DNA of 64,000 nucleotides from Nymphaea colorata (Eukaryota; Streptophyta; Magnoliopsida; Nymphaeales; Nymphaeaceae). The stretch lies in assembly GCF_008831285.2 (NCBI RefSeq), contig NC_045149.1, positions 16,733,035 to 16,797,034 on the forward strand, written 5' to 3'. Below, in pieces: positions 10,828 through 63,068 of this stretch. The notes beneath the pieces are model-generated. The model was not told the DNA's origin and did no database searches. It was given only the letters and a program-made list of their open reading frames with translations. Numbering within the stretch: the first letter of the stretch is position 1; every line of letters starts with the position of its first letter. The position numbers were made by a program, and so were the translations under genes.

Positions 10828-11244
10828 ATGGCATTCAAGGTGTTGATTTCTTCTCTTTTCATTTCAATGGTGCTCATCCAGTGTGCCTCCGCTTGCCCTT
10901 CTTGTGGTGAACCATACAAGCCACCTACGCCCAAGCCACCAGTGTACAAGCCGCCGGTGCACCCTCACTACCCGGCGAACCCACATTGCCCGGTCGACGG
11001 GTTCAAGCTTGACGCTTGCTTCAACTTGCTGCATGGGCTCCTGAACGTTGTGCTCGGCCGCCCACCAAGTGGGTCCGAGTGCTGCCCCGTCATCGCCGGC
11101 TTGGTCGACTTCGAGGCCGCTGCTTGCCTCTGCAATGTGGTCAAGGCTGACATCTTGGGTGTTCATCTCGAATTCGAGAAGAAGTTCGCCTTGCTGGTTA
11201 ACACCTGTGGATGCTCCATCCCCAAAGGCTACAAATGTGCCTAG
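10828..11244 (+). CDS. Hybrid proline-rich protein (8-cysteine motif), copy 1
   Basis: A single-exon gene for a 138-residue secreted protein of the hybrid proline-rich (HyPRP, DC2.15/14-kDa proline-rich) family. Residues 1-22 form a signal peptide ending CASA. A short proline-rich linker (about 24-53, with YKPP and KPPVYKPP) precedes the eight-cysteine motif: C54, C64, C85-C86, C100-L-C102, C127 and C137. In the family this is a four-helix lipid-transfer-like fold; members act in the cell wall or apoplast in growth, defence and stress. Three further cysteines (23, 26, 129) give eleven in the mature protein. The start is the first ATG after the TATA box and is embedded in AAAAAAATGG. It is the least GC-biased and most diverged of the three tandem copies, 7.6 kb from the next. 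The exact function is not inferable. Confidence 0.93.
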   Translation: MAFKVLISSLFISMVLIQCASACPSCGEPYKPPTPKPPVYKPPVHPHYPANPHCPVDGFKLDACFNLLHGLLNVVLGRPPSGSECCPVIAGLVDFEAAACLCNVVKADILGVHLEFEKKFALLVNTCGCSIPKGYKCA

Positions 11245-11350
11245 ACCAACGACGTTTACGCTTTTCTTCTTCTTCTTCTCCAGTATTCTTGTTATTCTAC
11301 TTTCTATATTTTTGATTCTGCTGTTTGATTCTAGTGTTTGGTGCTCTACG

Positions 11351-11376
11351 GTGTGTGTGGTTGGAGTTCCAATAAG
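11351..11376 (+). terminator. Poly(A) signal region of proline-rich gene 1
   Basis: A GTGTGTGGTT tract followed by CCAATAAG lies about 105-130 bp after the stop. The copies at 19405 and 26253 carry GGTGTGGTTNCAATAA at similar distance, so the 3' UTR end signal is conserved among paralogues. Confidence 0.55.
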
Positions 11377-12518
11377 CTGCTTACATGCAGTCAGTGCAAG
11401 CAGTTGTCCTTTTCGTTGTGTTGGTCCAATACTATGTCCCTGCGCCTTTACCTGTTGATGAGCAGGTGCTGAGAAGAGCAGAAAAAAAAAAAAAAAAGAG
11501 AAGGAACTTGAGTTAGCAACATCTGGTCATGTCATGGTGGTCTCAGCTTTTACCAGATGAAATAGGTCCTGCCAGCCATGAGGAAGAAGCAAGCTTTCTG
11601 GTGGATCAGAGGACGTAGGTGCAGTAAGTCGTCGTCCATCATGTTGCTTTTGCATTATTATTTCAAAGTCGAGTGCAATTCTTTGTTGCCAAGTGTGATC
11701 ATGTCATGGTATAAGAAATGTTTGATTTTCTCATTGATGCCTAAGCTTCTACACTTTCTTGCCATGATCTCGAGGTGAAACATGACAAAATTAAACTGCA
11801 GAACCTGATGACAAGTAAACTTATCTCTTGCGAAAGTTGTGGTTAATGCATGGCCGCCGACACCAAGTTAACTATTACGCTTTCAACTTCATGAAGCTTA
11901 AAAGAGAAACTTACGTTCATTTTCATTTTCCCCGTCTATAACGGCGGATTCTACCATTAGATTAGATCAGTACAGTAGGATTCAGATGTGAAATGCCCGT
12001 GCTATTACCGAACCCCAAGAAAAATGTTCACATTTTAGAAATGGGGTTTGGGTTGAGCAGTCAATCCGTACCGTACGTGCCCATGCAGAACCCGACTGGA
12101 GATGCCAGTCGACGTTGTGGTGATGGCCCCATATATTCGGATTTCTATGTAAAATGATTAGAAAATTTTTCATCTTCATACATCTTTTTTTTGTAATTTA
12201 TAAAATGGTACCACTCCCTTGATTTAATTCCTTAGCAAGAGTCACATTTTTAGTGAAGTCCATCACCAAATTACATTTTTACTGTTTTAGCTACTGCCTT
12301 TTGTTTTTCAGGTCAGTTCAGTAGGAGTTTGCTTCAATCTCTTACTTGATACCTTTACTAGAAAATTTGGCTCTCTTTTTTCGTTAAATTGTGAGCAAAC
12401 ACCTGCAAAAGGGAAATAGGTCAGAAGGTTATTCAATTGTTTACCTGAGCTTTTAAACTTAAAAATAAATGTAAAATGATCTACATGACTTTGAAAACTT
12501 AATCTGATTGGCATATGT
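11377..12518. other. 3' flank of proline-rich gene 1 and spacer
   Basis: Contains an A15-type homopolymer near 11481 and otherwise unremarkable sequence. No exon-like frame was recognised. Confidence 0.45.
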
Positions 12519-12882
12519 AGGGGCGGAGCCAAAGGAGGGATCCACATGGGCCTTGGCCCACCTCAAAAAAACATCAATTGTCATATATAAAAATTTTAAT
12601 AAATGATTTACATGTAAGTTCTGAAAATTTCAATTGTCATATATAAAAATTTTAATAAATGGTATTTGGGCCTGTTAAAATTTAAAAACTTTAATTTGAA
12701 AAATTTGTATTTGTTTGTTAGAGAAATTGAAATAAAAAGAGAGAGAGAAAGTTTAATAAAAGAAAAAGGTGAGAATTTTGAAAAGGAAATATGTCTTAAA
12801 TACAATTACTACCAAGAGAAATTCAAGGGAATCTTTCGTGAAACAAAGCCATGTGCCCCCGAGTCAGTGGGATCCGCCCGCC
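12519..12882. repeat. Dispersed repeat family, copy 2
   Basis: Starts GGGGCGGAGCCAAAGGAGG, continues with the family's AT-rich centre, and ends near GGGATCCGCCCGCCC. A 32-bp unit starting TCAATTGTCATATATAAAAA is duplicated inside it, and an A/G-rich insertion lengthens it relative to the other copies. Confidence 0.5.
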
Positions 12883-13986
12883 CGCCCTCCTCCAAGTCAC
12901 TTTCTTAATTATCAACCTGCAGCAAGAGAAATAGATAGCCAGAAATAATTAATCGTGCAAACCGGTAATTTATTACAGTAATCGTTTAATTTTTCATTTT
13001 TTTATAATTAAAATGGTTTTTTTAAATAAAAATGATACTTTAAAAAAAAATTAAAATAAGGGCTCTCTGAATTAAGTAAACTCTCAACTTTGGAAACAGA
13101 AAAATAAAATGAATGTAATTTTTCTGTTTTTGCAAGGACTGTATTTTTATTCAGAAATTATAGGCAAAACAGAACCCAAAAGAAAGAAACTTTACCTAAA
13201 GCAAATGCTGGGAACACATGCTCCTTCAAGTTCCACATGCTCCTTCAAATCTTCCTACTATCAATCTTAATTGAGGCTAATAGCACATTTAAAGAAATGA
13301 TGTATAGATGGATGGAAATTGGAAAAAGAAAAAAGCATATTAAATGACTTCGCATAGTTAATGCAGATATACGCATAATAGATCACAAACACAGAATCAA
13401 ACCTTCTAGATAGGCCGCTAATCCTTGGTTTCTGATTGTCTCCACCAAAAGGCCGTGTTTGATAGGTGGAATATTCTTCACTTGGTAAAACATGTCTTCC
13501 AAGCGCATCTCACGTTTGAATGCGGGAGAAGCCATCCACGGCAGACTGGTTTCTTTTGAATAGACGCACAGTTCGTAGCTTCTGGGTAAAAGTTATCCAC
13601 GAAATAGAAAATGTCCCGGGCAACTTTGTCGAGCGCCAGATGTGCCATAATTGAAGGGAAAAGGATTGACGTGGGAGCACGTTTCATGGTCCCATCGAGC
13701 TGCCGACCATGGGATCTTTTCCAACCAACGGCCAATTTCTATCCCATCAAATCAAACGCATGTTGTGACACAAATGACGCAGAGATGGGCTGCATTCTGA
13801 TTGAAATGCCCCACCAGGCACATGTTCAAGGACCAAACTCTTATATTATCTACAACTTCAAGCTCGTGACATTTACGTCATAAATTGAATTAACTTGGTC
13901 CTTAGTTTGAGCTCGAACCGAGCCGAGACCAGCCCGACCGAGCTCGAACCCAATCTTGTGCTCAGCTACCATTGCATTCTTTACAT
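12883..13986. other. Intergenic, no recognisable gene
   Basis: Very AT-rich to 13400, then more mixed. Opposing overlapping short frames at 13478-13883 resemble nothing known. The end (about 13895-13970) is a GAGCTCGAACC-rich stretch of the sort found in decayed transposon termini. Confidence 0.45.
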
Positions 13987-14315
13987 GAGCATTTGATGGC
14001 TTTGAATTTTGATTTTAGAATTGAAATTTTAGAAACAAAATTCCATCTTAAACTGGAATTGAAATTCTAATTCTAATTCTAATTTGATAGTATGGAGTTT
14101 TGATTCCATGATATGTTTGATAAAACAGGAATTAAAATTGTCTCTAAACTTAATCCTGCAATCATAATTTCAACCCGTAGGGTAGAACTACAACTCCGCA
14201 ATCATGATTCAAGAGTGAACTTATAATTCTGAAATCAAAATTCTTTGTCTGATTTCATAAAAGATAAGAATTTTAATTCCAGAATTTCATAATTTGGGCC
14301 TCATCAAACATGCTC
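13987..14315. mobile_element. Candidate MITE
   Basis: GAGCATTTGATGGC at the left matches, imperfectly, the reverse complement of the right end GGGCCTCATCAAACATGCTC. The interior is AT-rich with repeated AATTCTAATTCTAA and many TTTTGATT words. Length and ends fit a short PIF/Harbinger-like MITE. TTA and TAA trinucleotides are close to but not exactly at the ends, so the target duplication is not proven. Confidence 0.4.
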
Positions 14316-15369
14316 TAAAGGTTTTGAGCATGTTACCGTCGTTTGGAGATATCCAGATCAACAGCGGCAAACTGGTTTTATAATATTGATCCTTTGGCAG
14401 CATCCAAGTTAGGTCAGTAGAGTGCATGTCGGCAAAGCCAAAATCTGTGGGTCATCAATGGCCGCAACAATCCAAGCCTCACTCTCATGCCTATCTGTTG
14501 CTCCACCAATCAAATGCAGCAAAGGGATGAGGAGAAGAAGCACAGACCTTGTAGCCAATAATATTGATGCATGCTTCATATCACCACAAAATTATGCAAG
14601 CCAAGGTGTTAAGTGTGGGAATAATATGGGGGTTCTTCAGCAGAGATGTATGGTTGCTGAAGATTAATTCATTTTGGAACTCTGGTTCTTGGGTTTGGAT
14701 CTGCCCGAGACTCGTAATTTAATGATTCTGGGTTTCTTGGAGATTTGATAGCGTAATTGGATTTGGATCTAACACTTCGAATCTGTGGTTTTTGGCATGG
14801 GGACAAGGGTTTGGTCGTGTACGAGTAATATAAAAAGAGCTAGACCGGAATATCCGTTTGATAGAAAGATCTCTTCGTGACAGGTCAAGTCACCATAGTT
14901 TTTTAAAAGTTTAAAGTTGGACGGTGGAGAATTTTGTAAAACTGCCGTAAACAACTACTCTTGTCCGGATGTGGTCGGAGTTGAAGTTTTATTCCGTTAG
15001 CAGCCAAGAATGGCCGAACCCACCGACTTGGCTCACAGCTTGGTGTTTGGTGTTAGGTCCGGTCACACATGCCAGGCCAAACATGTATTCCCAATACTTT
15101 AAATAAATCTTGGAGACTAGCTAACACCCACGCAACAACCCACCACATAACATACATACCAGTGGCAGAGCCAGGATTTTTTTGGTTTAGAGACGCTCGA
15201 GCCACCAGCTCAAGTCTAATATGTAACTTTTAATAGTCCAATGTGGGCTCCATGTAACTTTTGACAATGCAACTTTGATTTACACTAATGTGAGGTCCAA
15301 CCAACCCCCATGTATCATACACAGACAATGTGAGCATGCGTCCTCACATATATATGTACTTTTGTAAAT
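14316..15369. other. Intergenic with partial dispersed repeat
   Basis: No gene recognised. Near 15160-15200, GTGGCAGAGCCAGGATTTTTTT is a partial member of the dispersed GGAGCC family. The remainder has no structure I can name. Confidence 0.4.
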
Positions 15370-16341
15370 GATGTGTCTTACAAGTATACTAGGAGATATC
15401 GTATTGTTCCATTCAAGCATTTTTTGCATTAATGTGATTGCCAGACGTCTCATATTAGAGATCCAACATGTTGGATGGTTGGATTGGCAAAATGATGAAA
15501 GTTTGGTCATCAATGTCATTTTCGTGGATGCTATTCCTTTAAACTGTAAATGATGGGTACGTGATGCTAATCTGGATCTCGATACAACTTCTAACCCTAA
15601 TTACAAGTGAAAAGGAAGAAGGTCTTCGACCACTTTAAAATATCCACATTTAAACATTTGAATTAGCATAGCAGGCTTAAGCTTAATCTGGTTCTCATTT
15701 TAAGACAACATTCTCATCCCATGAGGTGTTGTACAAGAGAGAAAGTTGTGTGTGCCGAAAGACATTTTGATAATTTATTAAAAAAATGTCCTCCATAATT
15801 TTTTTAATTTTTTTCATTTTTAATATTGTCTTTACAATTTTTTTTAAATGTAAATTAAAAGTATTTCAGCTTACAAGTATATTAAGGGATATCTTATTGT
15901 TCCATTCAAGTATTTTTTGCATTAATGCGATTGCCACACGTTGGCTGGATTGGCAAAACAATGAACGTTCTGCCATCAATGTCATTTTCGTAGATGTTAT
16001 TCCTCTAAACTGTAAATGATCGGTACGTGATACTAATTTAGATCTCAATCCAGCTTCTAACCCCAAAACAAGTGAAAAGGAAAAAGGTCTTCAACCACTT
16101 TAAAATATCCATATACATATCCACGTTTAAACATTTGAATTAGCATCGCAGGCTTAAGCTTAATCTTATTCTCATTCTAAGACAACATTCTCATCTCATG
16201 AGGTGTTGTACAAGAGAGAAAGTTGTGTGTGTAAAGGAGAGAAAGACATTTTGATAATTTATTAAAAAAACCATCCATAATTTTTTTTTTAATTTTGTGT
16301 TTGCAAAAAGTTTTTTTTAAATGTAAATTAAGAGTATTTCA
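15370..16341. repeat. Tandem duplication, unit about 0.49 kb
   Basis: Two direct copies, about 15370-15869 and 15870-16341, each start at CTTACAAGTAT (15377 and 15870, offset 493 bp) and include TTCCATTCAAG, GTTGTACAAGAGAGAAAG and a closing AATGTAAATTAA. They differ by scattered substitutions and small indels, so the duplication is not fresh. Open frames within both are short and unlike known proteins. Confidence 0.85.
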
Positions 16342-18618
16342 ATTATTCACCATCTTCATACGCCTTGTAAAAAATGGATGGCATAAATTGGCTCCATTTG
16401 ATTGACAAGACGTCTTAGAGAGGGTCTTCACGTGGCAAACACTTCACTTTCAGTAATTTCCTCAGTACTATTTTAAATATCTATGAAATCTTTTAAAAAC
16501 GATGCATTAGGTATAAATCTTCATTTTGGTCGTTTTACTATTATTTTTAAACATTAACAATATTTGAAAACATTTGGGTGACACCCAAAAAAACAACTTT
16601 TGAAATTAAAATGGTTCTACTTCCAAAACGTCATCTGAAACATGTCTAAAAGAAAGTGAATATCACAGTCACCCGTCAAGTTTTTTTTTTTCTTTGTCTG
16701 ATTAAAATTTAATGTTTTAATAAATTCTCGTAAAATAATTTTTTTGAGTATATGATCAAAATAACAACTTCTTCCTTTTATTAAATCCGCTGGCACCTAT
16801 TAACTTTACTCACATTCTTCGATTCCGACCATCTCCAGCCACATGAAATCCGTGCATGGGACCCACTAAATCTGTTGTGTGCCCAATTAAATGCTAGCTA
16901 TTGATCTTTCTTGGGCGGATTGGCTGGTATGCCATTTTCATATTTTCAAAATAAAAATTAAAATAGTTAATATAATTGGAAAAATAAAACTGAAAATTAA
17001 TATGATCTTTCGACGAGGGACTAACATGGCATGCATCGGCGGATACAGATCAACACAACGCCATGAAAATCCACGCAAATAATTACGTACCGGAGAGTGA
17101 ATGCTGAAGCTCCTTTCATCTCTACAGGGTTCTACAGGGTTTAAGACTGTTTTGTGGTGTTTTTAGAGAGATGCAGATGTTATGTTTTAACTTACATATA
17201 AAATAAAATATGCAAATTCTTGTTTGCACGTAAAGTTAACACGATTGTTTGCACGTAAAGTTAATACCATCAAAGTTTGAAACGGAGACTAACTCTCTAC
17301 CTACCACCCCTGCTTCAATCATACACAAACTAATTATGCATACATTTAACAATAAGAATTAATGAATCGAAAACTGCATGGCTAGCTGATGATATTAATA
17401 CCCGTATAAAAATTCAAATGGCGTTGTAAGTTGATATAATCAAGCGGCTTGAAGTCGCCGTAGTTGAAAACCAGCAACAAGTTTTCCTTCTGTTTTTTAC
17501 CCTTTCTGCTTGCTCCCACTGAAAATCACTTCGGGGCTGATGACTTCATTGCCAAAGGCTAGCAAAGGCTATCCCCGGCTTTTGTCTTCACGGCAAGAGA
17601 CAAATCCCAGTGGATTTCGACCTCATGTTCTTTTCTGTCTAGTTGCTGATGCTTGCGGTAAAAAATTATGAAAATGGTAGGAGTAAAAAGAGAGCAAGGA
17701 ACACAAATATAAATCTGAAAGTAAAATTAAGATGACGGTTGGAACTTTAGACGATGGAAGTATTGTACGGTTGAACCATCTTTAAGAGGAAGAATTCTTT
17801 TGGTTTTTTGTTTTGTGTTAGACGATGAAGCAGACATTTTTTCTTCTGATGCAAACGAGATGTTTAAACAGTCGGCAGAATCTAACCAATCCCTATATGA
17901 ACTTAAATATACAAAAATTAACAAGACGGACTCTAAATTTGTATCATTTTACTGTATTACATCTGAGACCGGATTCTTTTTCAATGTTGAAATAGTTACT
18001 TGGCTGCACATGAGAAGTCAAATTGTAAGCGGAGAGGATAGTGCATATCTCCATGAATAGACGGATGCTAGTCGCCAAGAGGATCGACGTGGGTGGTCCA
18101 AATCCAAATGAGCGTTCATGGCGGCATGACTAGAAAAGGAAACGGGCATGGCGGGCAGAATTTGTCACTGAACTTCAAATGGGAGGGGAGAGTGACTGAA
18201 AACGTCGAATGCGGACAGCTATGTACGTGACCAGTAAGTGTGAAAGGAGAGAAAGCTTTGATACTTCTTAATCTTGAACGTAGATGTTTCTGTAAGCACC
18301 TTTTCCGGAGCGTATCTTACGGGTGATAAATTGAAAGTGATGCGTCAATGGATGCATTTGAAGGTTTAATCTCAGTCTTCCTTTTTCGGTTAATGTGAAT
18401 GCAGAATTGGCTTCTGAAAGTTGATCACTTCGCATTGGTCCAAATGTTGATATACATATGTGTGTGTGTGTGTGTACGCGCGTGTATGTATGTGTGTGTG
18501 TGTGTGGAGAAAGAGAGGCAGAGAAAAAGAAAAGACAAATGGGATATAAAAGAAAAGATTATTCTGATATGTACCATCCCTATCGCTCAGCAGGTTGGCT
18601 CCCATGCATTGTAGTATA
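16342..18618. other. Intergenic with (TG)n tract
   Basis: AT-rich spacer without recognised exons. GTTTGCACGTAAAGTTAA is directly repeated around 17222-17262. An imperfect (TG)n tract lies at about 18459-18507, roughly 110 bp before the conserved promoter block of the second proline-rich gene. Confidence 0.5.
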
Positions 18619-18640
18619 GCAACTGGACAAAGCTCCAAAA
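18619..18640 (+). promoter_or_regulatory. Conserved upstream block of proline-rich gene 2
   Basis: GCAACTGGACAAAGCTCCAA begins 139 bp before the TATA box and 253 bp before the ATG. Immediately upstream CCATGCATTGTA carries the RY-type core CATGCA and is also shared with gene 3, which has CCATGCACTGTA. Confidence 0.55.
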
Positions 18641-18757
18641 GGTGTGGCGGTTTCCCCTCCACTAGGGAATGCCAGCTATGGCGGTGTCCGCCATCGCCCA
18701 CATGCCTGCACCTTCCCTCTGCACTACCAACCCCATCCTTTCCCTTCCCCATCCCTC

Positions 18758-18766
18758 TATATATAA
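18758..18766 (+). promoter_or_regulatory. TATA box of proline-rich gene 2
   Basis: TATATATAA lies 114 bp upstream of the start codon, in a C-rich context like the other two copies. Confidence 0.75.
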
Positions 18767-18871
18767 CCCTGCCTGGCCTGCAACTCCCACCATCACTACC
18801 ACAAGAGCAGGACTGAAGTATCCAACCCTCTCTTGTGAGCCTTACCTAGTGATCGAGTGTGAGAGATAGAT

Positions 18872-19297
18872 ATGGCATCCAAGGTCATCCCTTCCCTTCT
18901 CGTAGCGCTGGTGCTCATCCAGTGCGCCGCTGCCTGCGAGCCTTCCTGCGAAAACCCACCCGTCTACAAGCCCCCTGTGTACAAGCCCCCCGTGTACAAG
19001 CCCCCTGTGTACAAGCCTCACTACCCAGCTTACCCACATTGCCCGGTCGACGCCCTGAAGCTCGGCGTCTGCGTCGACCTGCTCCACGGCCTGCTTAACC
19101 TGGTCATCGGCCACCCGCCGAGTGGCTCCGACTGCTGCCCCCTCATCAAGGGCCTGGTCGACCTTGAGGCCGCTGCCTGCCTCTGCACCGCCATCAAGGC
19201 CGACATCTTGGGCATCCACGTCGACCTCGACGTCAAGCTCACCCTCCTCGCCAACACCTGCGGCTGCTCCATCCCCGACGGATACAAGTGCGCTTAA
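18872..19297 (+). CDS. Hybrid proline-rich protein (8-cysteine motif), copy 2
   Basis: Single-exon gene for a 141-residue secreted HyPRP. The signal peptide covers residues 1-21 (ending CAAA). The linker is a clean array of four PPVYK repeats (about 29-48). The eight-cysteine domain starts at C57 and contains the CC and CLC pairs and a CGC near the end in place of the single seventh cysteine. Third codon positions are strongly G or C. The domain-coding part is very close in nucleotide sequence to copy 3 (few, mostly silent, differences), whereas the distal flanks are unrelated. The ATG chosen is the first after the TATA box and gives the signal peptide. Family members are extracellular and lipid-transfer-like; the precise role here is unknown. 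Confidence 0.94.
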   Translation: MASKVIPSLLVALVLIQCAAACEPSCENPPVYKPPVYKPPVYKPPVYKPHYPAYPHCPVDALKLGVCVDLLHGLLNLVIGHPPSGSDCCPLIKGLVDLEAAACLCTAIKADILGIHVDLDVKLTLLANTCGCSIPDGYKCA

Positions 19298-19404
19298 GCT
19301 AATGCTCCGGTGCTGCTCCTTCCACGTTCTCGCGCGTCATTCCGGCTATCTGCCTTATATTTCTAGTTTTCTTGTTTGATTCAAGCACCCCTTGAATGCT
19401 CTTT

Positions 19405-19421
19405 GGTGTGGTTACAATAAG
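19405..19421 (+). terminator. Poly(A) signal region of proline-rich gene 2
   Basis: GGTGTGGTTACAATAAG, the form of the conserved 3' UTR motif found in this copy, lies about 110 bp beyond the stop codon. Confidence 0.55.
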
Positions 19422-21973
19422 GTGTTTGTCTGAATTCTCTGTAATCCTGCTCTGTTATTTGTATTAGTTCATTTATCCTATTGTTGCCTGTTAAACAGGC
19501 CATTCAAGAAAAAGCAAAAAAAAAAAAAGATTTGTCGGAAGAACAATCTGTGAGCGAAATAATTTCTTTTTCAGTTGCCATCCATCAAGAAATGCACCTG
19601 GGCTTGTGACAAACCCAAAGCTCTAGTGTGAAACCTGTTGCTGGTTTCTCCTAATTCTAAAACGAACCTCACAATTAAGATCGAGGGTCATTTGATATCA
19701 GTCATTGTCCGTATACAACAAGCTCGCCATCTCAAGCTCGACTCCAGCCACAGATTGCTGAGATTGAGCTATATCCAGTAAACCTAGTCTGGGTTTGAGT
19801 TCGAGATCGACTCGTTTAAGCTTATGTCAGTTAATTCATATACTTTATACTTTTAAATGAAAATAAAAATCGCAAGGAGAGTGTTAAAATTCAGAGAAAA
19901 AAAATACCGACATATCCTTGAATATTAACAAACTGGAAAAACACCAGCCGATTAGAGTTTAAACAAGTCCAGCTCGTGTCACTCGAACTCAACTGGTTCA
20001 TAACTCTTTATAACTCAAGTTTTAAGTCAAGCTCCGACTCCTTTATTAAAAGAGTTGAGCTTGGAGTTTGAATCGAGCTTGTACATCCCTACTTGATGTA
20101 GAAAATTATTGAGGTGACTGTGATGGTACTCGTGGTGTTGGCCACTTGCCGATGGGTAAAACCTTTTAGAGTTCTGCTCGTTCAGAAATCAGCCGAGGGA
20201 CCTAAAAGTTTCATCCGATTACAAATACTTCAGCTTTACTCGTATGAGCTTGAGCAAAGCTGCCAATCACTGTTGGGCTCAGGCAGTAAAAGGCACTTTA
20301 TGTGAATCGGACAGACCGCTCATGTCCCATACTAAGAGCTTGCAGGAAAAAAACACAGTAACATATTTTTCCATAATATAGGTTTCGAAGTTGCAGTCAT
20401 AGGGATCTAACCGTAGGTACACAAGAACGCAAAATCTATATACAGTTTATGTGAATGAAAAACAACATGAGAACTTAATGTGTTTACCATAACTCATAAG
20501 AGTTTAAAAGTAAATGTTCTAGCTTGCTTAATTACAGCATAAGCTATCATAAACTTATGCTTTTGTTTCAAAACCCAACAATTTTGGGACATTCCAAAGC
20601 AAATATTTGTAGGACTAGCGTCGTGAGAAGGAAGTTAAAATTGCTACATGATACACCCATCATGCCGCATATAATAGGAACACAAATTTTACAATATATT
20701 ATATATATGTGTGTATAAACACAAGGGGCGTTTTTTTTTCCTTCTATGGACACAAGCGTTCCACAAATCAAACACCCTCCCGGGAACCTTTGATTTGTCC
20801 AAGACCGCTCTATGGCCAACATCAATAGCGCGCATAATACCAAACCGGACCGCGTGCTGCATCAAACTATCCAAAAATAAATAAATAATGTATACATAAT
20901 ATGTGTATATGTATAAACATGTATTTATATACAGAGAGCTGGTGGGGATCTAAAGTCAAAATGAAGTACGAAAATGATAATTTCATATTAGAAGAACAGG
21001 AACACAAAGATTCACAGCCACATAAACAGACGCCTGGACCCCATTTATAAGTTAAGATCTGGTTCTGCTGGTACGACTGAAGCAACAATTAGGTCCGCCT
21101 CTCGCGGGACGCACCATTTGGTGGACACCCCTTCGTGACATGTGGACACGCACAGGCAAATTCAAACGCACTGACACAAATAATCATCATTTCTGTATGT
21201 CAAAAGCATATATGTCTTCGAGTCATAATTCTTCACTCATATCAAACCCGTCCAGGCCCCAAGTTTCCTTTTAAAGGACACTTGATCCTGCGTCCAGGTG
21301 TGAGCACGGTCCACAAGTCATTCATTCGCGACATAGGTCTTAATTTCTTGGAAAGGAATGATGGCATTAATCAACAAGTATATTATATTATGTTGGACAC
21401 ATAATATAATGGGTCAAGCTTACATCTTATTTTAAACAACAAGTAGTGTAATATTCCCACAACCTTCGTCCACTTGGCTAAGTAGGTTGGCTTTAAAGCC
21501 TTCGAATCTGAGGAAGACAAGACTTCGAAATTACCAAGGCCAAAAATCCACTAGAGGTACTTATGGGCTTTACACTAGTGAAAGACAATCAAAGTAAAGC
21601 ACGATTTGTGAAGATCAAACTCTGAAATTAACTGGTGTAATGAATGTATAAAGGAAACGTTAGTTGCGCTTACAAATTGAAAGATGGCAGCATTAGACCT
21701 TTTTCTTTTCTTTTTCCAATGAAGCCAAATTGGTTAGGATGTTGTTTAACTTATTGCAACATTCCATCGGTGAGATGCTTTTGCTTCCCTTGAGTACAAA
21801 AATAGCAGTCGTTGAAAACAAGAATGAAACGACGGATAAGAATAGAAAATTGTAAACACATCCAACTCCATGCCGGCATCCAGAATGGAGCCATGTAAAA
21901 AAAAAATGCTTAATTTGTCATATCCGTCTACTGTCCATGGAGAACGATTAAATGAAGTGCTCAATTGGCATAA
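19422..21973. other. Intergenic, decayed transposon-like sequence
   Basis: An A12 tract follows near 19516. From about 19730 to 20091 the sequence is rich in AAGCTCGA and CGAGCTT words and ends GCTTGTACATCCCTA, a terminus typical of plant hAT-like MITEs (TAGGGATGTACAAGC read inversely), but I cannot place its partner. The rest shows no recognisable gene. Confidence 0.4.
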
Positions 21974-22101
21974 TCAATCACTTTTTTTTTTTTTTTGAAG
22001 GATTTCTTTTAGGGACCAGGCCCTCTCTTAAACCCCGAAGCTTTGATTTGAACAAGCGACTGGCCTAACCAGACGCCACACCCTTCGGTTTTACTCAATC
22101 A
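21974..22101 (-). mobile_element. Short SINE with poly(A) tail and target duplication
   Basis: Read on minus, a tRNA-like head (GGGTGTGGCGTCTGGTTAGG, then TTGTTCAAATC as a B-box-like site) is followed by a short body and a terminal poly(A), seen as T15 from 21982 on plus. TCAATCA flanks it at 21974-21980 and 22095-22101, consistent with a target-site duplication. Total length without flanks is about 114 bp. Confidence 0.6.
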
Positions 22102-23003: not shown

Positions 23004-23034
<31 letters not shown>

Positions 23035-50237: not shown

Positions 50238-50281
<44 letters not shown>

Positions 50282-51957: not shown

Positions 51958-52206
51958 AAACTGGCAGAAGAAAGGGGGGCCGTATATGGCTTCCCTCTCA
52001 TTTTGAGGAAAAAAATTATAGTTATAATATTGAAAATTTTTAATTTGGTTCTTGTAAAAAGTTTAAAAAATATTGTTCAGCATATATATGAATTGTGAAA
52101 ATATTTTTAATTCGGTTCTTGTAAAAAGTTTAAAAAATATTGTTCAGCATATATATGAATTTTGAAAATACTATTCGCTCTCAACAAAAAATTTTCTCGC
52201 TCCGCT
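51958..52206. repeat. Dispersed repeat family, copy 4, with internal 66-bp tandem duplication
   Basis: Starts AAGAAAGGGGGGCCG and ends CTCGCTCCGCTC. Within it a 66-bp unit, containing GGTTCTTGTAAAAAGTTTAA and CAGCATATATATGAATT, is present twice in tandem (about 52031-52096 and 52097-52162), almost unchanged. The duplication arose after insertion, since other copies lack it. Confidence 0.6.
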
Positions 52207-55200
52207 CATTCTATACATTCGTAGCACACAAGTGGGCAATAAAATAATTTGAGCAATACAACCTACTTTACGCTATTGATTGCAAGGCTATAAATCGAGG
52301 TTTAGGACTTTTCTAGCTCTTGTAGGTCGGAGTTGTCGCAAGGGACGATATACTTTTTTTTTTTTTTTGACCGACCCTTGCATTGGTCCCGCGAATCAAA
52401 CAAGGGCAGGGTGCGTATCCTCGGATCTGATGTTCCCAAACACAAACACAAACACAAACAAACACGCACACGCACATCTGACCTGAGATCCGGGGTTCTT
52501 AGGGGAAACATGGATATGAAATCCACGTTTCAGTCACAGTGGTGATCCAAGTTTGTTTGAACAATAGGTTCCAGGATTTCAGATCCCCTCGGATCTCATA
52601 TGACATAGGCAAACAAACTCAAGGGATAAATGTTATTTCAAGGAACGGCGCACACAGCTCGTATAGGCCGTAAGATCAGACGGAACATTTTGGTAATTTT
52701 TTAAAGAAAAGGGCATGTTCATCATTAACCAAACTGGCGCATGAAATGTAGTATGGTGCATATAACCAGGTTCGGTTTTTTCATGTAATTCTTTAGCATA
52801 AAAGATTGTGGAGTTACCCTCTTCATTGCTTTAATCTCATGACAAAGCAAAACTCAGCTCTAAATATCATCCAAATTATAGGTCTTGAGCTAACTGAATC
52901 ATTAAGGTATGGGGAATCCATAATTCCAGAGCTCATTCAACTCATGGGCTTAAATCTAATCGACTTGGTTCAGTTTGTAGAGCCTTAGAAAGCAGACTCC
53001 ATTTGGCTTTCGTTATGTTATTCTGCTACTTTAATGGGTAGTTTGGTCTACCAAGCTTACCAGGTAGGAGCAGTCAGCCATATCTCGCCCACAGAAGGGA
53101 GAGAAATCCATCTACCGGCCACTTTTCTCTTTCAGGCAGTCGGGATTTGACGGTGGCCCTAGCATTATTGGAAGTATAATGTGTGAGAAGCAACAAACGC
53201 GTTGTTTCCACGCTCACAGAGGCAAGGAAAGAAGCATCTCCCTAGAAAGGCAAAAGTCTCAAGCTTTTCATGGAGAGAGGTCACCCGATCTAGTGACCAC
53301 AAATCTATTCAAAAGTGGCTGTCGATGACGACCTTAAAGCCATGATGTCAGCGTTCTCCTTGAATTGATTTTGCGGTATATAGATGAAAAAGTGAAGAAT
53401 ATTACAACCATGAAAAGCAAGTTAGTGGCTTGTCCGATTCTTGGCCAGGTAGAGGGAGAGAGATAGAGGCGGTTGCAATGTAGAAAGCGAGTGCTCGTCT
53501 TGTGGGTGGTGCAATTGAAATTGTAATGGCTGCCCACGAATCTTAGGGTACCATATCTCATGAAGCTTAACGAAGACAAAAGACAAAAAAGCTCGATGCC
53601 CTTCCTGTAAAGCTCCTTATGATTGCATACTTTCGAAGCCATGAATAGCATAAAGGAGTTGGAAACTTGCCAACCTTTCAGGAGACTCTCTCTCTCCCTC
53701 TCTCTCTTTGATTGAAACCAAAGCTGCAACTTGCCAAGCTCTCCTGCACACCCATTTTGACTCATGAATGACGTCAGTAAATTCGCTGGATGATAAAGGT
53801 ATCCTTTACCTTGAAACTCAAACGTTCGACGAGATCCTCGCCTGCACAGAAGACCTGGTTTAATTGGTCTTCGTCGATAAGAGAATTGTTATTTGTCGTG
53901 ATGAGCAAACAGAAAAATAGTGGATGATTGACAGTGTTACTCAATGAAGAAAAGGACTGCTTCCTTATCATCGATCTACCAACGAAGGAAACAGCCAGAC
54001 AATGGTCTGTGGTAGCGGCTGCGTAAGGGCAAAGAAGAGAGTAAGGAAGAAGGAAAGAATGCTCTAAGTTGGCAAGACAAAGTCAGATAGAGACCAAAGC
54101 TGCATTTCGACTCTTGAAACTGTTGACCTCCTTCAACTTGATAGACTTGAATCTTAGAAACGCACTGATAAGGAAATCTGAGCTGTTGTTAGTCCGCTGC
54201 AAATTTTAATTCAAGAAAAGTTTATATAAAAAGTTTAGGCTCCATGCAGCTAACCAAACTAGTTTCAGAACCCACTTCACTTAACTTTCCCCTGACCAAG
54301 TTTTTCGAGTAGTCTGGCTACAACCTGTGGGGCAAGTCTTTTGTGGAAGTCAGTACAAGCGTAGGCTTGGGCCCATGCTCTATGGGCGGACTGCACCGGA
54401 TCAAGTGGGTAGTCCAAAAACGTTTAATAAGTTCGATCTAGGACCGACCAGCGTTTTTCATTTAACGTATAGGCTTGGGCCAGCGCGTTGTATATGTACA
54501 TGAGGACAAGACGTTAACACCAATGCCCATGTGCTTTCGTCCATTCGCCTTACCGATCTTAACTTTGCAACGGTTTTGTGGAATGTGACATGTTCAGGTT
54601 CTTGGAATAAAGAGAAAGATAAGACGCATATAATTGCACTTTTAAAGTATTTCCAAGAACTTCCAGCCTAACTTGAAGATTTGATTCTAAATTTCTTAAT
54701 GGCCTCTCTTTTTACGTAACAGTGTTAACCTGCACTCCAAGAAAACATACCTACTGAATTTAGGCCTCCAAATCTTATATTACCAAAAAAATGTTGCACA
54801 GAAAGACGAAGCACAGTAACAAAAGGCTCTCCTAGCGCAAAGAGGTGCAGAAAGGACCTGCCTGACAGGATCGGTGACGGAAATTTCAATCAGATTTGGC
54901 AAACCTGAAGATCCAGGTAGCTGATGAATATACTGGAGAAGATACGATCATGCAGCAAAGACATTCATGATTCACGAAACATATTAGAATTAGAGGTTTG
55001 ACCAGCACTCGTGGTCGTCTTCCCAACAACGTAAAACTCGGACGCGCAAATGCATCCTAAACCCAACGCACCATCGTCCGCAATTAAGGAAGTTTAAACC
55101 CATCACAGGCCACCTAAAGACGAGGACCTTCCATTTTTCCTGATCTCCCTGACTCAAAAAAACATCTAGTCACCTTTCAAGTTGATCCATAAAGTGCCAC

Positions 55201-55557
55201 GATCTTTGTTTGTAACGTACCCTTTTAGGTCTGGTTCTTTCACCAATTCCAGCGCTTCAAAGTACAAGAAACAAAGTTGAAGCGGAGATTAGTGTAAAGT
55301 TTGAGAGAATTTGTGACTGCGTACGTGAAAATGTGAAGCATAGGTGACTTGATTGGGATTGTTACATGCAGGGATGCATATTTGACAATTCAATTTTATG
55401 GAATTCTTTCTCTTGCGATCTATTAGAAAAATATAAATAAATGAAATTAATAAACTTGAAAAGACTTAATGAAGACAACAACGGTCCGGGAAATGACTTT
55501 CTATATTTGTACATTTCGTGTGAAACATATTTGTGTGAACATATACATGGAAGCACT
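52207..55557. other. Spacer between convergent genes
   Basis: Contains a (CAAACA)n-like microsatellite at about 52438-52462. A 143-codon minus frame at 53334-53765 includes GA-repeat-encoded residues and has no family similarity, so I do not call it a gene. The part nearest 55557 should include the 3' UTR of the CDP-diacylglycerol synthase gene, but no poly(A) signal can be assigned with confidence. Confidence 0.45.
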
Positions 55558-58500
55558 CTAAAGACCGAACAATGGCACGCCCATTCTGACGAAGGAATAG
55601 GCGAGTGCACCGGTGAAGATATAGCTATCCACTCTGTCAAGCAAGCCACCTGCAGAATCACCAACAGGTATTCCCAGTAAGATATATTGAGACATTCCAT
55701 AAAATTGGAATTATATTCTACATTTAAGGTATATATATGACAAACAAAAGGGCGAAGATCATGTAAATTCAGAATATACTTGGACGCATGTTTCGTGAGC
55801 ACTACAATACATGTAAATTCAGAATATACTTGGACGCATGTTTCGTGAGCACTACAATAGAGAATGTCAATACCATCTATGCATGGTAAATGCTCACATT
55901 TAAATCTAATAAAAGGCACACGGCCTGAGACCTGTCATTGCGGATTTTAACGAGAAGAATTACATGACTACGTACTCATAGGATTCCAAAGACAGGAACA
56001 AAAGACTGTGAGACCGGGTCCATGCTTCATGTTTCACCAACCAATACCCCTCTATGTTCTTTCCCCAAACCTGCTGCTTGTTTAACAGTTTCATTTTCTT
56101 CTTAGAATGTAGGGCTGCAAAGGAGAGCCCTTCATGCTTCATTTAGTACCAATCAAGACACACATGTATGGTACATGTCCAGAATTTGTTTCCCCCTTCG
56201 AACCCAACACCTTTCCCATTCCACACCCCCCACCCTCTCTCCCATTCGGTTGCCTAAACAGATTCATTTTCATGAAAATATGAAAATGAGCCACCCTTTT
56301 TCTCCTCTCCGATGGAATCTGACATTTCTGGAATCTATCAGATCTAGGAAACTTGTCATATTTCTTTTCATGCTGAAATTTTTAAGCACACCACGAAAAA
56401 ACAGAAAGGTGCTCTTTCACATATAACAGACTATAAATTGTAAATGTCTCGTGCTAAACGAAATGTAATTTTTTAAAGAATTTTTATTACAGAAAATATT
56501 AAATCAAATATTGATCATAAGTTCATTCCATATTTTATGTTATCAAACTATGTCACATGGGTGCTTCTAAATGGCTGCTGCATCCCTGTCGCAACACTGG
56601 CATTGGTGCTGGTGCTTTTTTGACACAACACATCCGGTTCAGTCAGCCGAACCAGGCCAAAACTGACCGTTTTAAATGTGCACATAAATAAACTATCTCT
56701 AATAAAAAAAAGTTTATATGTAAATATAGACAAATAAGGTCACTGAACAGTTAAATAACTATGCAACAAATGATTTATATACATATATACACACTGAGGT
56801 GCACCAGCATTTCACTGGTGTTTCTTTAACATGTGCACATGCATGGGTGCATGGACGCACACCTAAGTTGTTAAATATTGGAAGTTGGACATAAGTTGTT
56901 CAAGATACTAAAAAGACAAACATGGACTAATCGGTTTGACTTGGCCCAATTTGATTGACAATATAAATAAATTAACGACATTACATATATTATACAAAGA
57001 ACGTACATATATTTTTATGAGTCAGAACATTAGTTGGTTGTCCAATGACTAGTCTGACTAATTGACTAGACTGACCAAGTGATTGCTAGCCTAAACACAG
57101 ATCATTCAATAACTGACTCAACCGACCAGTCAGCAAACTAATCGGGATTTTGACAACTCAGGCAAGATTAAGTTTTACTAGTTATAATTTATAAAGAACC
57201 CACAAACAAAGCCTGATAACACACGCATGGCCAAACTCAATTATTTTCAACCAGAAGATAAGTTAGATAGGCACATCAAATCAGTAAAACAGAGTGAAAC
57301 ATAGCAAGCTTCAACTTCATCTATTCATAAAAGTGGGAAACAGAAACATTTCTCCTTACTCCCAAATTCCTCTTTTAAATGCAAGCGAAAATGGAGAAAC
57401 AATCCCACGCATGGTAAGGATTCCCAACCAACAAACAACCAATAGTAATTTATGAAACAAAACATATTCATAGATTGAATTGGAAGTAACACATACAACA
57501 TCTGAAATTTCATATCGTCAGTAACCCTCTTATAATCTTATTCAATGTCAACTCTAAAAAGCCAGATATTTTACAGTATGGTCCCAAGCCCTAAGGTGAA
57601 GCTGCTTTATTTAACTTGAGTGGGATTAGACTGACAATAAATAAAACACAAAATAATTGATGGTACCAAAGAAACGAGAACCACAATCTTTCAACTTCAT
57701 ATGAACTTCAATGATAAACATAAGCCTGGGAAACATTTTCACTTCTTAATGTCCTTATACAACTGATCAAATTTTAAACATGTTAAACACTACAAATAAA
57801 CTAACAGTAGTAGAATTTGCACAAGCATTGCCAAAAGTAATGAAGGAAATGTGGCAAGGGGGACATACCATGTCCAGGAATGAGAGAGCCAGAGTCTTTG
57901 ACACCAGCATCACGCTTGATCATTGACTCAACAAGGTCCCCAAAGAGGGATCCCATGAAATTCAAAACTCCATAAGCCAATGCACTGATGTGGATCACAC
58001 AATAAGGAAAAAAATGAAAGTATGGAAGGAAATTAGACACAAAAGCTAATGCTTACAGAATAAAGGAGGTATTAGATGTTTAACATAGCAGATTATGATA
58101 AAAAACCCATAAACTATATCTATACTGCGCTAATATACACTAAGAAATCCACATAGTACATGCATGCTGGTGTAACATATATAATATAAACCATACTTGC
58201 AAATATAGTTCTAAGGTTTCTATAGGTGAGGCTTTCCTCAGGTATTAACTAGCAAATTTTGCTTTTCTTAGGGAAAACTAGGGAATTAAGATATATTATA
58301 TATATATATATGAGAGAGAAAATTTTGGAATCATGGATTACTATTAAATTCTTACAAACAAAACATTGAAAAAAGTCTAATTAAAATATCGAAACTAAAA
58401 AATTTTAAATATATTAACAATTAATTTTCGAAAACTCAGAGGAATATTGTGATACTTTTATAACGTTTTTATTTCAGCAATATTTTCAAAACATCAAGAT

Positions 58501-61500
58501 ACATAATGTTTCCATTTTTTGAATTTGATTGATCCTTTGCATTATATATATATAATAGTCTTCCTTGTTTTCTTCTCCAGCATAGGAGAATCAAGGTGCA
58601 AACCTCACTATCGGCATGGCAATAATGACAGACGACAATACTATAAGGTTGAACCATTGAAGTCGAGACATAAATGTGTGTTTTATTCCAGATAAAATAA
58701 TTTGCATTAGGCAAAAATTTCATACATGGATAGAGTTTTTTGTCCATCGAAATATGAAAGCACAAATTGTTCATAAAATCCACAAAAGTTAAATTTGAAA
58801 CAAGATTTCTAATCTAAGTCACACGGATACGTGGGTTTGCCCACGTATCCCGTGTCAATACGCAATTCGGACACGGATACGGCATGGATACGTTTTGGAA
58901 TGGGTAAGACCCGATCCGAACCCAAAAAACCCGATTTTAACTTGTCGAGCTCTTCTCCCATTCACCCGACGAGGCTTCACGTTAGGGTTTATGCAGACCA
59001 GATCGTCGGCAGCTATGGCGGGCGACGGTAAAGACTTCCGGCGACCCAAGGCGACGTCCGGCGACGGACAGGTAAGTGGGTTTTCTTTTTTTCTTTTTGA
59101 TATTAGAAGTTAGGGTTCGTGTTCTTCATATGGGAGTTTTTTTTTCTGTTTTTGGATTTGCCGATTTGGGGGTTTTTTTCTGTTTTTGGATTTGCTGATT
59201 TTCACAACTGCACAATACATATCAATGAGCTCAATCTTTCTGAACTTGACCATTTAGCAGTGACATCTTTGTCGAGTGTTGTTCACTTGAACAGTAAACT
59301 CAGTAAAGGGGAACAGCATCGGTTTTTGGCGCTTCTGTTCTAGCAGCCGTTGATATGGTCTGTTACAGATTGACAAATTGCACCTGTTACAGATTCTCTG
59401 AAGTGGGAATCGGGGCATTTTGTTTTACATTAGATTTGGAAACCATCTTTCTATCCCAAGCCCCACTTGGCATTACATTTACATAACCAATAAAGCATAA
59501 GAAGTATACTTGTATGATTTTCCCTGTTGTAAGCATTCCTCTGAACCAGACCTGTTAGAGACTTTGTTCATTGTTAATTTGTTATGCTTCCTTATGCACT
59601 TATAATCTTGATTTTTGAGATGTTGAACCCTTGTGTTTTATTCCTTCAATTGTATGTTCATTATATGTTTTAATGTAGTATGGCGGACAAACAATGTTTT
59701 GTTTGTGACTTTAAGAGTGAACTATCAATTTAATGTTTTTTTTTTTTCAATTTATAATTTTTGAGAATATTTTCCATATCCACGTATCCTAGAATTGTGA
59801 AAATTGCCGTGTCCGTACCCGTATCCTCGTATCGCACCCGCACCCGTGTGACTTAGCTTCTAATGTGACCTTTCCATCAAAGAGGTTGCATTATGCACAA
59901 AAAACTAGTTACTACGACAAATCAAATCAGAGAGACTGAAATGTACCTTATCAATGAGGCTGGCCACTGAAGGATCTTGGACAACACGATTGTAGTCATT
60001 ACACATCCAGCTAAGCCGGCAAAAGCTCCTTCCAATGTCTTTTTTGGGCTAATGGTTGTAAGTGGTGTTCGGCCAATCGCCTGAAAACAACAAACACAAC
60101 AGCCTGAGACTAACTAGCCATTTTTATACAAATAAAAGATGTTCATTTATTTAACTCTCCTTGCCTATAGGGAGATACTAACACCTACTCATCGGCTAAT
60201 GTATATAGGGTAAAAAAAGGTCAAAGTCAGAAAAAAATTGGCCGTTCCTGCAAGAGAGTTTAAACAATTCAATAGTCCGACATTTAATGTACGGCAACAT
60301 TAGGCCATGTATTTAAGTGTCATAGCAATGTAAGCAAACAAATTGGAATTCAAAATATGTTCACAATATCAATTTGGAACGACATACAACAGATTGTATT
60401 AACATAAAAAGAGCATGAGAAAGCTAAAGGAATAGCAAGAACGAAATACAGAAGCAACATATGATCTAAGATATTCATGTTCGACATTGGGAGCTTACTT
60501 AGTCTTAGCGTTGTGCAAAAGACCATATCCGAGACAGCTAAATACTTCATTTGTCGGGTCACAAATGTTTCTGATACAATAGAAAATGACAAAAAACCTC
60601 AAACCAAATCTGGCCTCACTGCAACCCTACCTCGAATTTTCAAAATTAGATCTGTTAGAATCTCTATGTTAGTTTTTTATAACTATTTCTTGTGCCTGTT
60701 TTCCCAAAAGCATTCATGTAACCAATGACTGATGATAGCATGAGCAGAGAAAAGATTTAGTGAATTTTTGCCTCAATTCTACCCATAAAGCATTTGATAC
60801 CACAGAACTAAGGAAGATTATGCTGCCACAAAAGAGAAAATGAGTACTCAAACAGGAAGGCGGGTCTTGGGGCATGTAGCAATCAATCTCATTATTTTAA
60901 CAATACATGTGCTATTTGAGGCAATAGCCACACGATAGAGGTTGACAACCTATTAGACATGCCAATACAGATCTATAATGTACTCATTGGCTCATTCCAG
61001 ATGAAAATAGTGAAACCCCCGATAAGTAGTTTGGTAAAAAAGACTGGAGTATAGATACCTTCCCAACTAGATATGCAGAAGTATCTGCTGCAATTACACT
61101 GCTTATAGAAATCAATGTTGCAACAAGGCCAACAGTCCAGTGGGCTTGACCCCCAAGAAGAAATGGCCAACTAGCTCCAATTTCTGTCAATCACAAACTG
61201 GTTAAACACCAAATTTTAGTAGATAACTCATCTCAGACAATGAACAAAGAACTAATCTGAGAAGCAAAATGCCATGGTCAAGTACATAAGAGAGAGAGAA
61301 TAGTGTGTTTCACTTAGAGCACCTAACCCTATTTTGGACCACATACGTGGAGTCCACCACTTGTTCCACCTTAAACAAAGGGTAGGCACACAAGGTGCAA
61401 GGCAGAATAGAGACTGGGCAACAGATCAAGTACTGACCCAAATGCAACTGAACTTAGAGAACTTTATTCCGGATTGGTTGAATCTGCTCAGGATCACCAA

Positions 61501-63068
61501 ATTCTGGATTGTTTCATTCAACACCAATTCTAACTATTACTAAAGTTCACTAAGAAATAAACTATACTTTTTTATCAGAAACAAACTGAACTAATGCATA
61601 CTGTTATTGGTTGTTATTATTATCTAGCTGTATTCATAACTATAGTTATTTGATTGTATTTACTTGATTGCTACTTGCCATGTTATAGGTATGTTCAACC
61701 TTTTCATTATTTTGTCGTAAAAGTACAACATAAAAATTTATGCATGACCTGAACTGGCCGAGTGACCCTGACCCAGTAGTCAGCTGAACCGAGTTTGATT
61801 CATGGGTTTGTCAACTACGTTTTTTACCAAATCAAGAATCTCAAACAGGGAACTTCTCCATAGGTATTCACAGAACCATTTCTATTTCATATGTTTAATT
61901 TAACAACTGACCAAACTAAGGATATTTTTAACAGAAAAGCAAGGTCAGAACATAGGTCTAATAAAAAAAATTGATCAATCAAATTCTGAGTTATGACAAG
62001 GAATTAAATAACTATGGTTTAATCAATCTATTTGAGACAAGATTATTTAATTTAGTAAATCTTTGTGTTCAGATCTATGTCACATGGGGTAGGGGTATGA
62101 TACACGTACGGGTACGGACATGTGCGTACGGGTACGACGATTTTAGAAAATTTTAAATTCTCAAAATTAAAGGAAAATGAGAGGAAAGTATAGAATCTTA
62201 GTGGAAGGGAAATACAAAAGAAGAGAAAAATCAAAATTAAAGAAAAAATTAAGTTTGAAAATAAAAGTTTAAATGTTTTAAAATGCAGCCGTACCCAGCT
62301 GCATCCACATACCCACATCGCCGTACCCATGTACTGACATGGTTACCTAGGCAAATCACACGTACCCATGTCACATAGGTTCAAATACATGTAAAGGAAA
62401 TAATAAGAACAAGAACTTGGAAATAAGACTTACAAAATAGTTGGCATTTCAGGGACAAAAAGTTTCTTTCTGTTAGCCTTGATCTGCAGGCTCTAATAAT
62501 GGTGACAATTGATAAGGGAGAGCAAGACACCATTCACTGGTGATTGATGCAGAATTTGGCATCTACAAGGCCTTTCAATGTAGGTCATTCAAAGTACTTT
62601 CTTAATTTGTTAATGATGTCATAGAAACACCAGGAATTCCTCACACTTCTTGTCCTTTTCTTGCAACTGCTTTTGACATTTCTTTCCTTCACCAAATTGA
62701 TGGTGTTGTCAACAATCAAATACCGTTTCTTGGAGTCATATAAATTATTTTGGCTAAAATGACTGTTCAACTACAAGGATGATGAAACCTGAGAACATAT
62801 AGTTAACAAAGAATATCGCAAAGTACTAAAATGTTTATGCCCTCAATTTAACAAACAAGAAAGCCAAGAAAACATACTAGTATTCAAGGCAGGGGCTGCC
62901 AGACCACATCGAAGCTTCACCCAGAAGCAAGGAAGGTAACCACAGTAAAAGAGCCCAAAGATTGCACTACTCAGCTGTGCAAAACGAGGATTCCCTCGCT
63001 GCAAAACCAATGCCATTGCTACGATGAAGGCAGATGATGTCACAGAAATGTCCATATGACCAAAATAC
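55558..63068 (-). CDS. CDS4/CDS5-like: Plastid-type phosphatidate cytidylyltransferase (CDP-diacylglycerol synthase), 3' five exons
   Basis: Converts phosphatidate and CTP to CDP-diacylglycerol, precursor of phosphatidylglycerol in plastid membranes. Five coding exons read on minus: 63068-62878, 61183-61059, 60080-59947, 57984-57869 and 55649-55558 (stop TAG 55558-55560). All have GT-AG borders and the phases join into one frame of about 218 codons. Visible are multiple hydrophobic segments, [44 protein letters not shown] and the family signature S-M-I-K-R, K-D, PGHGG, DRVD split over the last two exons (GHG/G). The upstream exons with the transit peptide lie beyond 64000. One oddity: KKTLEG where relatives have KKTWEG. 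Introns of 1-2.2 kb carry transposons. The final residues read [10 protein letters not shown]. Similarity to CDS4/CDS5 rather than the ER forms rests on the segments cited. Confidence 0.92.
55761..55859. repeat. 50-bp exact tandem duplication in the last intron
   Basis: The unit starting ATGTAAATTCAGAATATAC occurs at 55761-55810 and again at 55811-55859 with no difference except the last base. It lies about 110 bp from the final coding exon of the CDP-diacylglycerol synthase gene, in the intron. Confidence 0.95.
58814..59856. mobile_element. hAT-like element with captured 5' exon, in a CDS intron
   Basis: Ends are CTAAGTCACACGG on the left and, reverse complemented, CTAAGTCACACGG on the right, followed by GGATACG or GGGTGCGGGTGCG-type subterminal repeats. 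Flanking 8-mers TTTCTAAT (58806-58813) and CTTCTAAT (59857-59864) match at seven of eight positions, the target-duplication size of hAT elements. No transposase is present. The GC-rich interior at 58920-59071 looks like a gene leader and first exon. The element's right end is 90 bp from the donor of the exon at 59947-60080. Confidence 0.75.
58991..59071 (+). pseudogene. Captured first exon inside the hAT-like element
   Basis: After a leader containing TTAGGGTTT, ATG 58991 (with a second in-frame ATG at 59015) opens a GC-rich frame of 27 codons, including [19 protein letters not shown], that runs exactly into a strong donor CAG/GTAAGTG at 59071/59072. It faces opposite to the host gene. No second exon follows within the element, so it is a fragment. 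The parent gene is unknown. Confidence 0.5.
62075..62378. mobile_element. hAT-like MITE in a CDS intron
   Basis: A 304-bp element with ends CTATGTCACATGGGG and, on the other strand, CTATGTGACATGGG. It is flanked by GTTCAGAT (62067-62074) and GTTCAAAT (62379-62386), seven of eight identical. Subterminal GTACGGGTACGG words repeat. The AT-rich core matches that of 185-456. It lies in the intron between the exons at 62878-63068 and 61059-61183. Confidence 0.75.

Follow-up and report, generated by a model that had tools for sequence, protein, structure and literature searches.

Genes of the window

The window, that is, the whole stretch of Nymphaea colorata DNA analysed here (64,000 nucleotides, C12:16733035-16797034), carries three genes for hybrid proline-rich proteins (HyPRPs), one HAM-type GRAS gene and five exons of a CDP-DAG synthase (CDS) gene. 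Its features, in window positions, are as follows:

10828-11244, plus strand: HyPRP copy L1, 138 aa (Pfam Hydrophob_seed, E 7e-21)
18872-19297, plus strand: HyPRP copy L2, 141 aa (Hydrophob_seed, E 7e-24)
25738-26148, plus strand: HyPRP copy L3, 136 aa (Hydrophob_seed, E 2e-23)
39843-39949, plus strand: conserved non-coding element located 3.7 kb upstream of HAM (109 columns, 75% against C4, E 9e-12)
43047-43115, plus strand: HAM proximal upstream conserved stretch (83% against C4)
43305-43391, plus strand: HAM proximal upstream conserved stretch (72% against C4)
43600-45867, plus strand: HAM-type GRAS transcription factor, 755 aa in a single open frame (PF03514, GRAS, E 1e-84)
44823-44843, plus strand: perfect miR171 target site inside the HAM coding sequence, encoding ILARLN
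55558-55649, minus strand: last CDP-DAG synthase exon, with stop, in phase, AG/GT borders
57869-57984, minus strand: CDP-DAG synthase exon, in phase, AG/GT borders
59947-60080, minus strand: CDP-DAG synthase exon, in phase, AG/GT borders
61059-61183, minus strand: CDP-DAG synthase exon, in phase, AG/GT borders
62878-63068, minus strand: 5'-most CDP-DAG synthase exon within the window, in phase, AG/GT borders

HAM is a meristem regulator controlled by miR171. In the protein encoded here the GRAS domain is C-terminal (residues 388-754, PF03514), and the miR171 site GAUAUUGGCGCGGCUCAAUCA (ILARLN) is present at 44823 exactly as in AtHAM1-3, being the sole match on both strands of the window even with up to 6 mismatches allowed. 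The same target sequence is conserved among 37 HAM orthologues from 13 plants, according to PMC3727082. Two HAM groups are recognised, and most HAM genes, including one Amborella member, fall into OG-HAM-II, to which the table and text of PMC5332381, as we read them, also assign AtHAM1-3.

The window HyPRPs, presumably secreted Cys-rich proteins, contain a short stretch of the PPVYK type, read directly in the sequence. L1 consists of an N-terminus that is hydrophobic by eye, a short Pro/Tyr/Lys-rich stretch and the Cys-rich domain, while L2 combines YKPPV repeats with that domain; L3 is 92% identical to L2 at the amino acid level, with dS of 0.20 (NG86) or 0.39 (YN00). All three match PF14547 and, like the left copy read on C4, show the eight-cysteine pattern C..C..CC..CxC..C..C, with the spacing C-x9-C-x20-CC-x13-CxC-x24-CxC-x7-C, which comprises that pattern plus one additional Cys. 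The domain stretch of the left HyPRPs (window 10828-26148 and C4:23629863-23630237) accordingly has nine cysteines with an added CGC, and the right-hand copies read, described below, lack this extra Cys. An element of ~600 bp occurs at 22885-23484 and, inverted and 88% identical, at 26235-26817, on either side of L3, perhaps as two copies of a mobile element, and a head-to-tail duplication of ~490 bp (15377-15868 and 15870-16341, 79% identical) lies between L1 and L2.

Plastid CDP-DAG synthase supplies CDP-DAG for plastid phosphatidylglycerol. The gene extends past the right edge of the window, a further upstream exon lying in phase ~1 kb outside, and the spliced product contains a cytidylyltransferase domain (PF01148, E 5e-52), in which the C-terminal signature is intact. 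Its only PDB matches are 4q2g (E 2e-18) and 4q2e (E 6e-18), which we take to be the bacterial TmCdsA, and NCBIfam PRK11624 matches at E 3e-26, under the family cut-off. Judged by these sequence relationships, the synthase is of the prokaryotic (plastid, CDS4/5) rather than the ER type. CDS4/5 are described in PMC7018664 as prokaryote-type plastid enzymes most similar to the cyanobacterial ones; a scan with six short patterns found no cyanobacterial title among the 80 of 157 prokaryotic relatives listed. HAM (plus) and the synthase (minus) face each other across a gap of ~9.7 kb (45867 to 55558). A perfect two-copy tandem repeat of 50 bp lies at 55760-55859, in the last synthase intron near the last exon.

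The window contains 280 open frames of at least 60 aa. Filtering out low complexity and genes already known left 232, and 229 of these were scanned against Pfam, a scan that covers neither exons shorter than 60 aa nor three frames beside L3 (25264-25704, 25349-25693 and 25431-25802). Three scanned frames matched PF01148 and were taken as synthase exons; no further convincing Pfam gene was found among the 229. Weak matches (ACBP at 8e-4, DUF3915 at 2e-3, and three other families between 7e-3 and 1e-2) were taken as chance, and a recheck for ACBP found none. Likewise not found in the window were Rfam families at gathering score, tRNA genes, and ATG8 and YABBY, the latter two searched with query sequences of these families.

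Both the HAM-type factor, by its GRAS match and exact miR171 target, and the CDS4/5-type synthase, by its five in-phase minus-strand exons and its domain, were correctly called in the first-pass annotation, made from the sequence alone; the HyPRP was also rightly placed, although it is not one gene but three in tandem on the plus strand. The same annotation regarded the gene spacing as stretched by repeats, which is rejected because gene density equals the genome average: five genes in 64 kb correspond to one gene per 12.8 kb, and the genome as a whole averages one per 13.0 kb (31,580 genes in 409 Mb, PMC7015852).

The paralogous block on C4 and linkage of the families

Another HAM gene lies on C4, where the following neighbours were located:

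C4:23597243, minus strand: VAP, left
C4:23629863, plus strand: HyPRP, left
C4:23645109-23647364, plus strand: HAM, 751-aa open frame with an exact miR171 site
C4:23872727, plus strand: YABBY
C4:24800202: ATG8

In a GRAS tree of this genome the window HAM pairs with the C4 HAM (100/100 support), the tree having taken in the 8 top-scoring of 28 other GRAS matches, so that closer relatives are possible among the remaining 20. The two proteins are 71% identical over 741 aligned residues, and their dS, 0.91 (NG86) or 0.76 (YN00), is close to the published Nymphaea colorata duplication peak at KS ~0.9, dated to 117-98 Ma in PMC7015852. The C4 block is most simply the duplication partner of the C12 block. 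VAP, HyPRP, YABBY and ATG8 are common to both, and of the two blocks only that on C12 was found to hold the synthase: the window's own protein detected none in C4:23627001-23667000 at E 0.001, and the PF01148 matches of the genome fall in three places only, on C13, C1 and C12, in an exon-by-exon search in which weak exons can be missed. Most of the neighbourhood has outlived the host's own duplication, and the duplicate, which kept the meristem regulator without the lipid enzyme, is an internal control that helps to tell inherited from functional linkage.

Distances from the C12 HAM to the nearest member of seven other families were determined genome-wide. The choice of families followed the Arabidopsis map, their chance values presuppose independence, and each exon was read separately, so that genes can be missed. 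The synthase is nearest, at 14 kb as measured to one exon (P 2e-4), followed by HyPRP at 18 kb (single-family P 1.6e-3), VAP at 75 kb (P 2.2e-3 with 6 VAP loci counted, nearer 4e-3 with the ~10 loci given by a laxer threshold), YABBY at 331 kb (P 0.013) and ATG8 at 1.29 Mb (P 0.037, weak alone but repeated on C4). SPX, 1.44 Mb away, is not linked beyond chance (P 0.10), and V-SNARE has no copy on C12 or C4; five of the seven families therefore fall within 1.3 Mb of HAM. The product of the C12 chance values is 4e-13, with independence assumed and the families chosen beforehand.

Gene order and mirrored flanks

In Arabidopsis the order is SPX3, VAP12, CDS4, GRAS (AT2G45160, HAM1), ATG8E, an LTP-family gene, YABBY and GOS12 (PMC9554558, section 3.2, Table 3). 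The segment AT2G45140-AT2G45190 resembles the Nymphaea neighbourhood in that VAP, synthase, HAM, HyPRP/LTP-type and YABBY genes are all linked and HAM adjoins the synthase (PMC9554558), but in Nymphaea HyPRP and VAP stand on both sides, SPX and V-SNARE are not near HAM, and the position of either HAM-CDS or YABBY is rearranged. Since the families of the Arabidopsis chromosome 2 block are linked here, the neighbourhood is common to both and therefore predates the Arabidopsis duplications, as had been proposed. The accompanying claim that the order is the same could not be upheld: HyPRPs on both sides of HAM-CDS make the order ambiguous, VAP and YABBY are not both collinear with Arabidopsis unless rearranged, and ATG8, which in Arabidopsis separates HAM1 from the LTP-family gene, lies 1.3 Mb from HAM here. 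The HAM and synthase genes of the window are probably, and its HyPRP genes perhaps, orthologous to the named Arabidopsis genes. As in the window, a synthase presumably stands beside HAM at AT3G60620-AT3G60630 (CDS5, HAM2), and the right-hand HyPRP array outside the window may match AT2G45180 more closely than the window copies do. Literature searches on HAIRY MERISTEM microsynteny, on CDP-diacylglycerol synthase-GRAS synteny and on AT3G60630 together with AT3G60620, mostly outside subscription journals, found no paper.

The layout on C12 is VAP(-) HyPRPx3(+) HAM(+) CDS(-) HyPRPx3(-) VAP(+) YABBY(+), and on C4 VAP(-) HyPRPx2(+) HAM(+) HyPRPx2(-) VAP(+) YABBY(+). Besides the genes already given, it comprises:

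C12:16701318, minus strand: VAP, left
C12:16801260, minus strand: HyPRP, right-hand
C12:16812787, minus strand: HyPRP, right-hand
C12:16821245, minus strand: HyPRP, right-hand
C12:17042701, plus strand: VAP, right
C4:23829024, plus strand: VAP, right (one exon-sized match containing a stop, E 7e-4)

HyPRPs thus flank HAM-CDS on C12, three plus-strand copies left of HAM and three minus-strand copies right of the synthase, and HAM on C4, with two plus-strand copies to the left and two minus-strand copies to the right; 10 of 19 HyPRP matches, the genome having at least 19, lie in these two blocks. VAP likewise seems to be present on both sides of both blocks, on the minus strand to the left and on the plus strand to the right, the right VAPs being 180-265 kb from HAM. 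A tree was built from seven HyPRPs: all three left and all three right copies of C12, one of the two left and neither of the two right copies of C4; R1 forms a long branch in it. The left copies part from the right ones with 97/98 support, and the two groups are 44-57% identical in the domain. The best-scoring non-self match of the right copy R2 is a C4 right copy (58%, 142 bits), which, on this sequence comparison, suggests that the mirrored layout arose before the duplication. Two scores speak against a clean left/right split: with R2, a copy on C3 that belongs to neither block (54%, 103 bits) outscores the C12 left copies (42-49%, 96-98 bits), as does the outer C4 left copy, which is not in the tree (52%, 111 bits). 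The mirrored HyPRP and VAP flanks are the most novel and unexpected part of the locus, and could account for a flip of HAM-CDS.

Such a flip depends on which VAP corresponds to AT2G45140, and the choice is ambiguous. With the left VAP as counterpart, one flip of HAM-CDS, with or without HyPRP, is needed to obtain the Arabidopsis order; with the right VAP, HyPRP-HAM-CDS-VAP follows the Arabidopsis order, and it is YABBY that must have changed place. Compared exon by exon with a VAP27-type sequence, the left VAP is 77, 88 and 73% identical and the right one 77, 63 and 76%, which weakly favours the left VAP as the counterpart.

It is also worth recording that long frames resembling, by eye, pieces of retroelements occur to the right of the right-hand HyPRP array (C12:16867035-16887034), and that two diverged but similar frames (...LKIATIFFLCVLIVTFFSFLIG...) on the minus strand left of VAP, at about C12:16668-16674 kb, look like a tandem gene pair.

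Conserved non-coding DNA and explanations for the linkage

The window was compared with 40 kb of C4 (C4:23627001-23667000) at E 0.01. An unbroken match at 43461-46183 spans HAM and its flanks, and the element at 39843-39949 is found on the same strand and at the same relative place in the C4 HAM block. From 46184 to 64000, an interval that covers the synthase introns, this stretch of C4 gave no match at that threshold. Matches at 6301, 6400, 8198 (which recurs inside the window), 15758, 30963-31062 and 38853 were discounted, being either out of collinear order or simple repeat; a reversed-sequence control returned simple-repeat matches only. A whole-genome search with 39843-39949 found only itself and missed the C4 copy, so that it tells no more than that close copies are not common. 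The alignment of intergenic DNA for conserved non-coding sequence, suggested as a check in the first-pass annotation and made here between C12 and C4 only, was accordingly positive upstream of HAM and negative beyond its 3' flank, and directs the search for HAM control DNA to ~4 kb upstream.

We consider that the neighbourhood represents an inherited gene block in slow decay, rather than one in which regulation ties HAM to the lipid enzyme, with a probability of roughly three in four. In the ancestor of water lily and mesangiosperms, VAP27, HyPRP, HAM, the plastid CDP-DAG synthase and YABBY would have lain near each other, with ATG8 more loosely placed, and members would later have been lost, moved or flipped in each lineage. 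The genes would function separately, most likely with nothing coupling them, and the linkage would last chiefly since small rearrangements are rare; we infer passive retention of a small multi-family gene block older than the water lily/mesangiosperm split. We know of no common pathway for HAM, CDS and HyPRP. The linkages LHY/CCA1-PRR and PIF3-PHYA likewise join different genes since early angiosperms, but those pairs serve clock or light signalling (PMC9516744). Several points weigh against the inherited block: passive retention is a null that the C12/C4 data cannot prove, a regulatory-looking conserved sequence lies on the HyPRP side, 3.7 kb upstream of HAM, SPX and V-SNARE are unlinked, ATG8 by itself is weak, and the prokaryotic synthase relatives listed, scanned with six short patterns, include no cyanobacterial title. 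The two lineages separated before the monocot-eudicot split (171-203 Ma in PMC7015852), and survival of the block in both could also reflect selection.

Compatible with the inherited block, and not exclusive of it, is the tentative idea that an old inverted duplication mirrored VAP and HyPRP around HAM-CDS and that the central segment has been inverted in some lineages by recombination between the two arms. The locus would then be a decayed palindrome, VAP-HyPRP / HAM-CDS / HyPRP-VAP, older than the water-lily duplication and oppositely oriented in Arabidopsis and water lily, which we regard as possible but doubtful. The mirrored layouts of both C12 and C4 speak for it, as do the separation of left and right HyPRPs among the seven copies read and the somewhat better fit of the left VAP to the VAP27-type sequence. 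The arms, however, have diverged too far to show a flip from one genome, a C4 left HyPRP outside the tree scores slightly above the C12 left copies with R2, and the right VAPs are distant from HAM, that of C4 being a single exon-sized match with a stop. Moreover, two mirrored gene types amount to a one-in-four coincidence, and a move of YABBY explains the Arabidopsis order equally well. Mirrored repeats nevertheless offer a testable mechanism for small inversions between lineages.

A regulatory tether of the genomic-regulatory-block type, in which HAM is controlled over long range by DNA within or past its neighbours, which stops HAM, synthase and HyPRP from separating, is rather unlikely. It is consistent with the conservation and collinearity of 39843-39949 and 43047-43391 between C12 and C4, with no other close copy found for the former, and with the retention of HyPRP on the upstream side of HAM in both blocks. 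Yet the element lies less than 4 kb from HAM, an ordinary enhancer distance, and in the single C12/C4 comparison conserved non-coding DNA did not spread through the bystander gene, as it does in a genomic regulatory block. The shared regulatory DNA earlier put forward as a possible link between HAM and the synthase is ranked low, because no synthase was found on C4, where HAM is intact and retains its HyPRPs and upstream conserved DNA, and because no conserved DNA was found beyond the HAM 3' flank (46184-64000).

Independent placement of large families is scarcely credible: the HyPRP family is indeed big and SPX and V-SNARE are unlinked, but the joint chance for C12 is tiny, even if calculated after the choice of families and with independence assumed, and the C4 block repeats most of the pattern.

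On C14, another HyPRP and another YABBY (1835974-1836225 and 1855023-1855261) lie 19 kb apart, with three more HyPRPs on the minus strand at 1966332-1998024; the group is perhaps a piece of an older paralogue of this neighbourhood.
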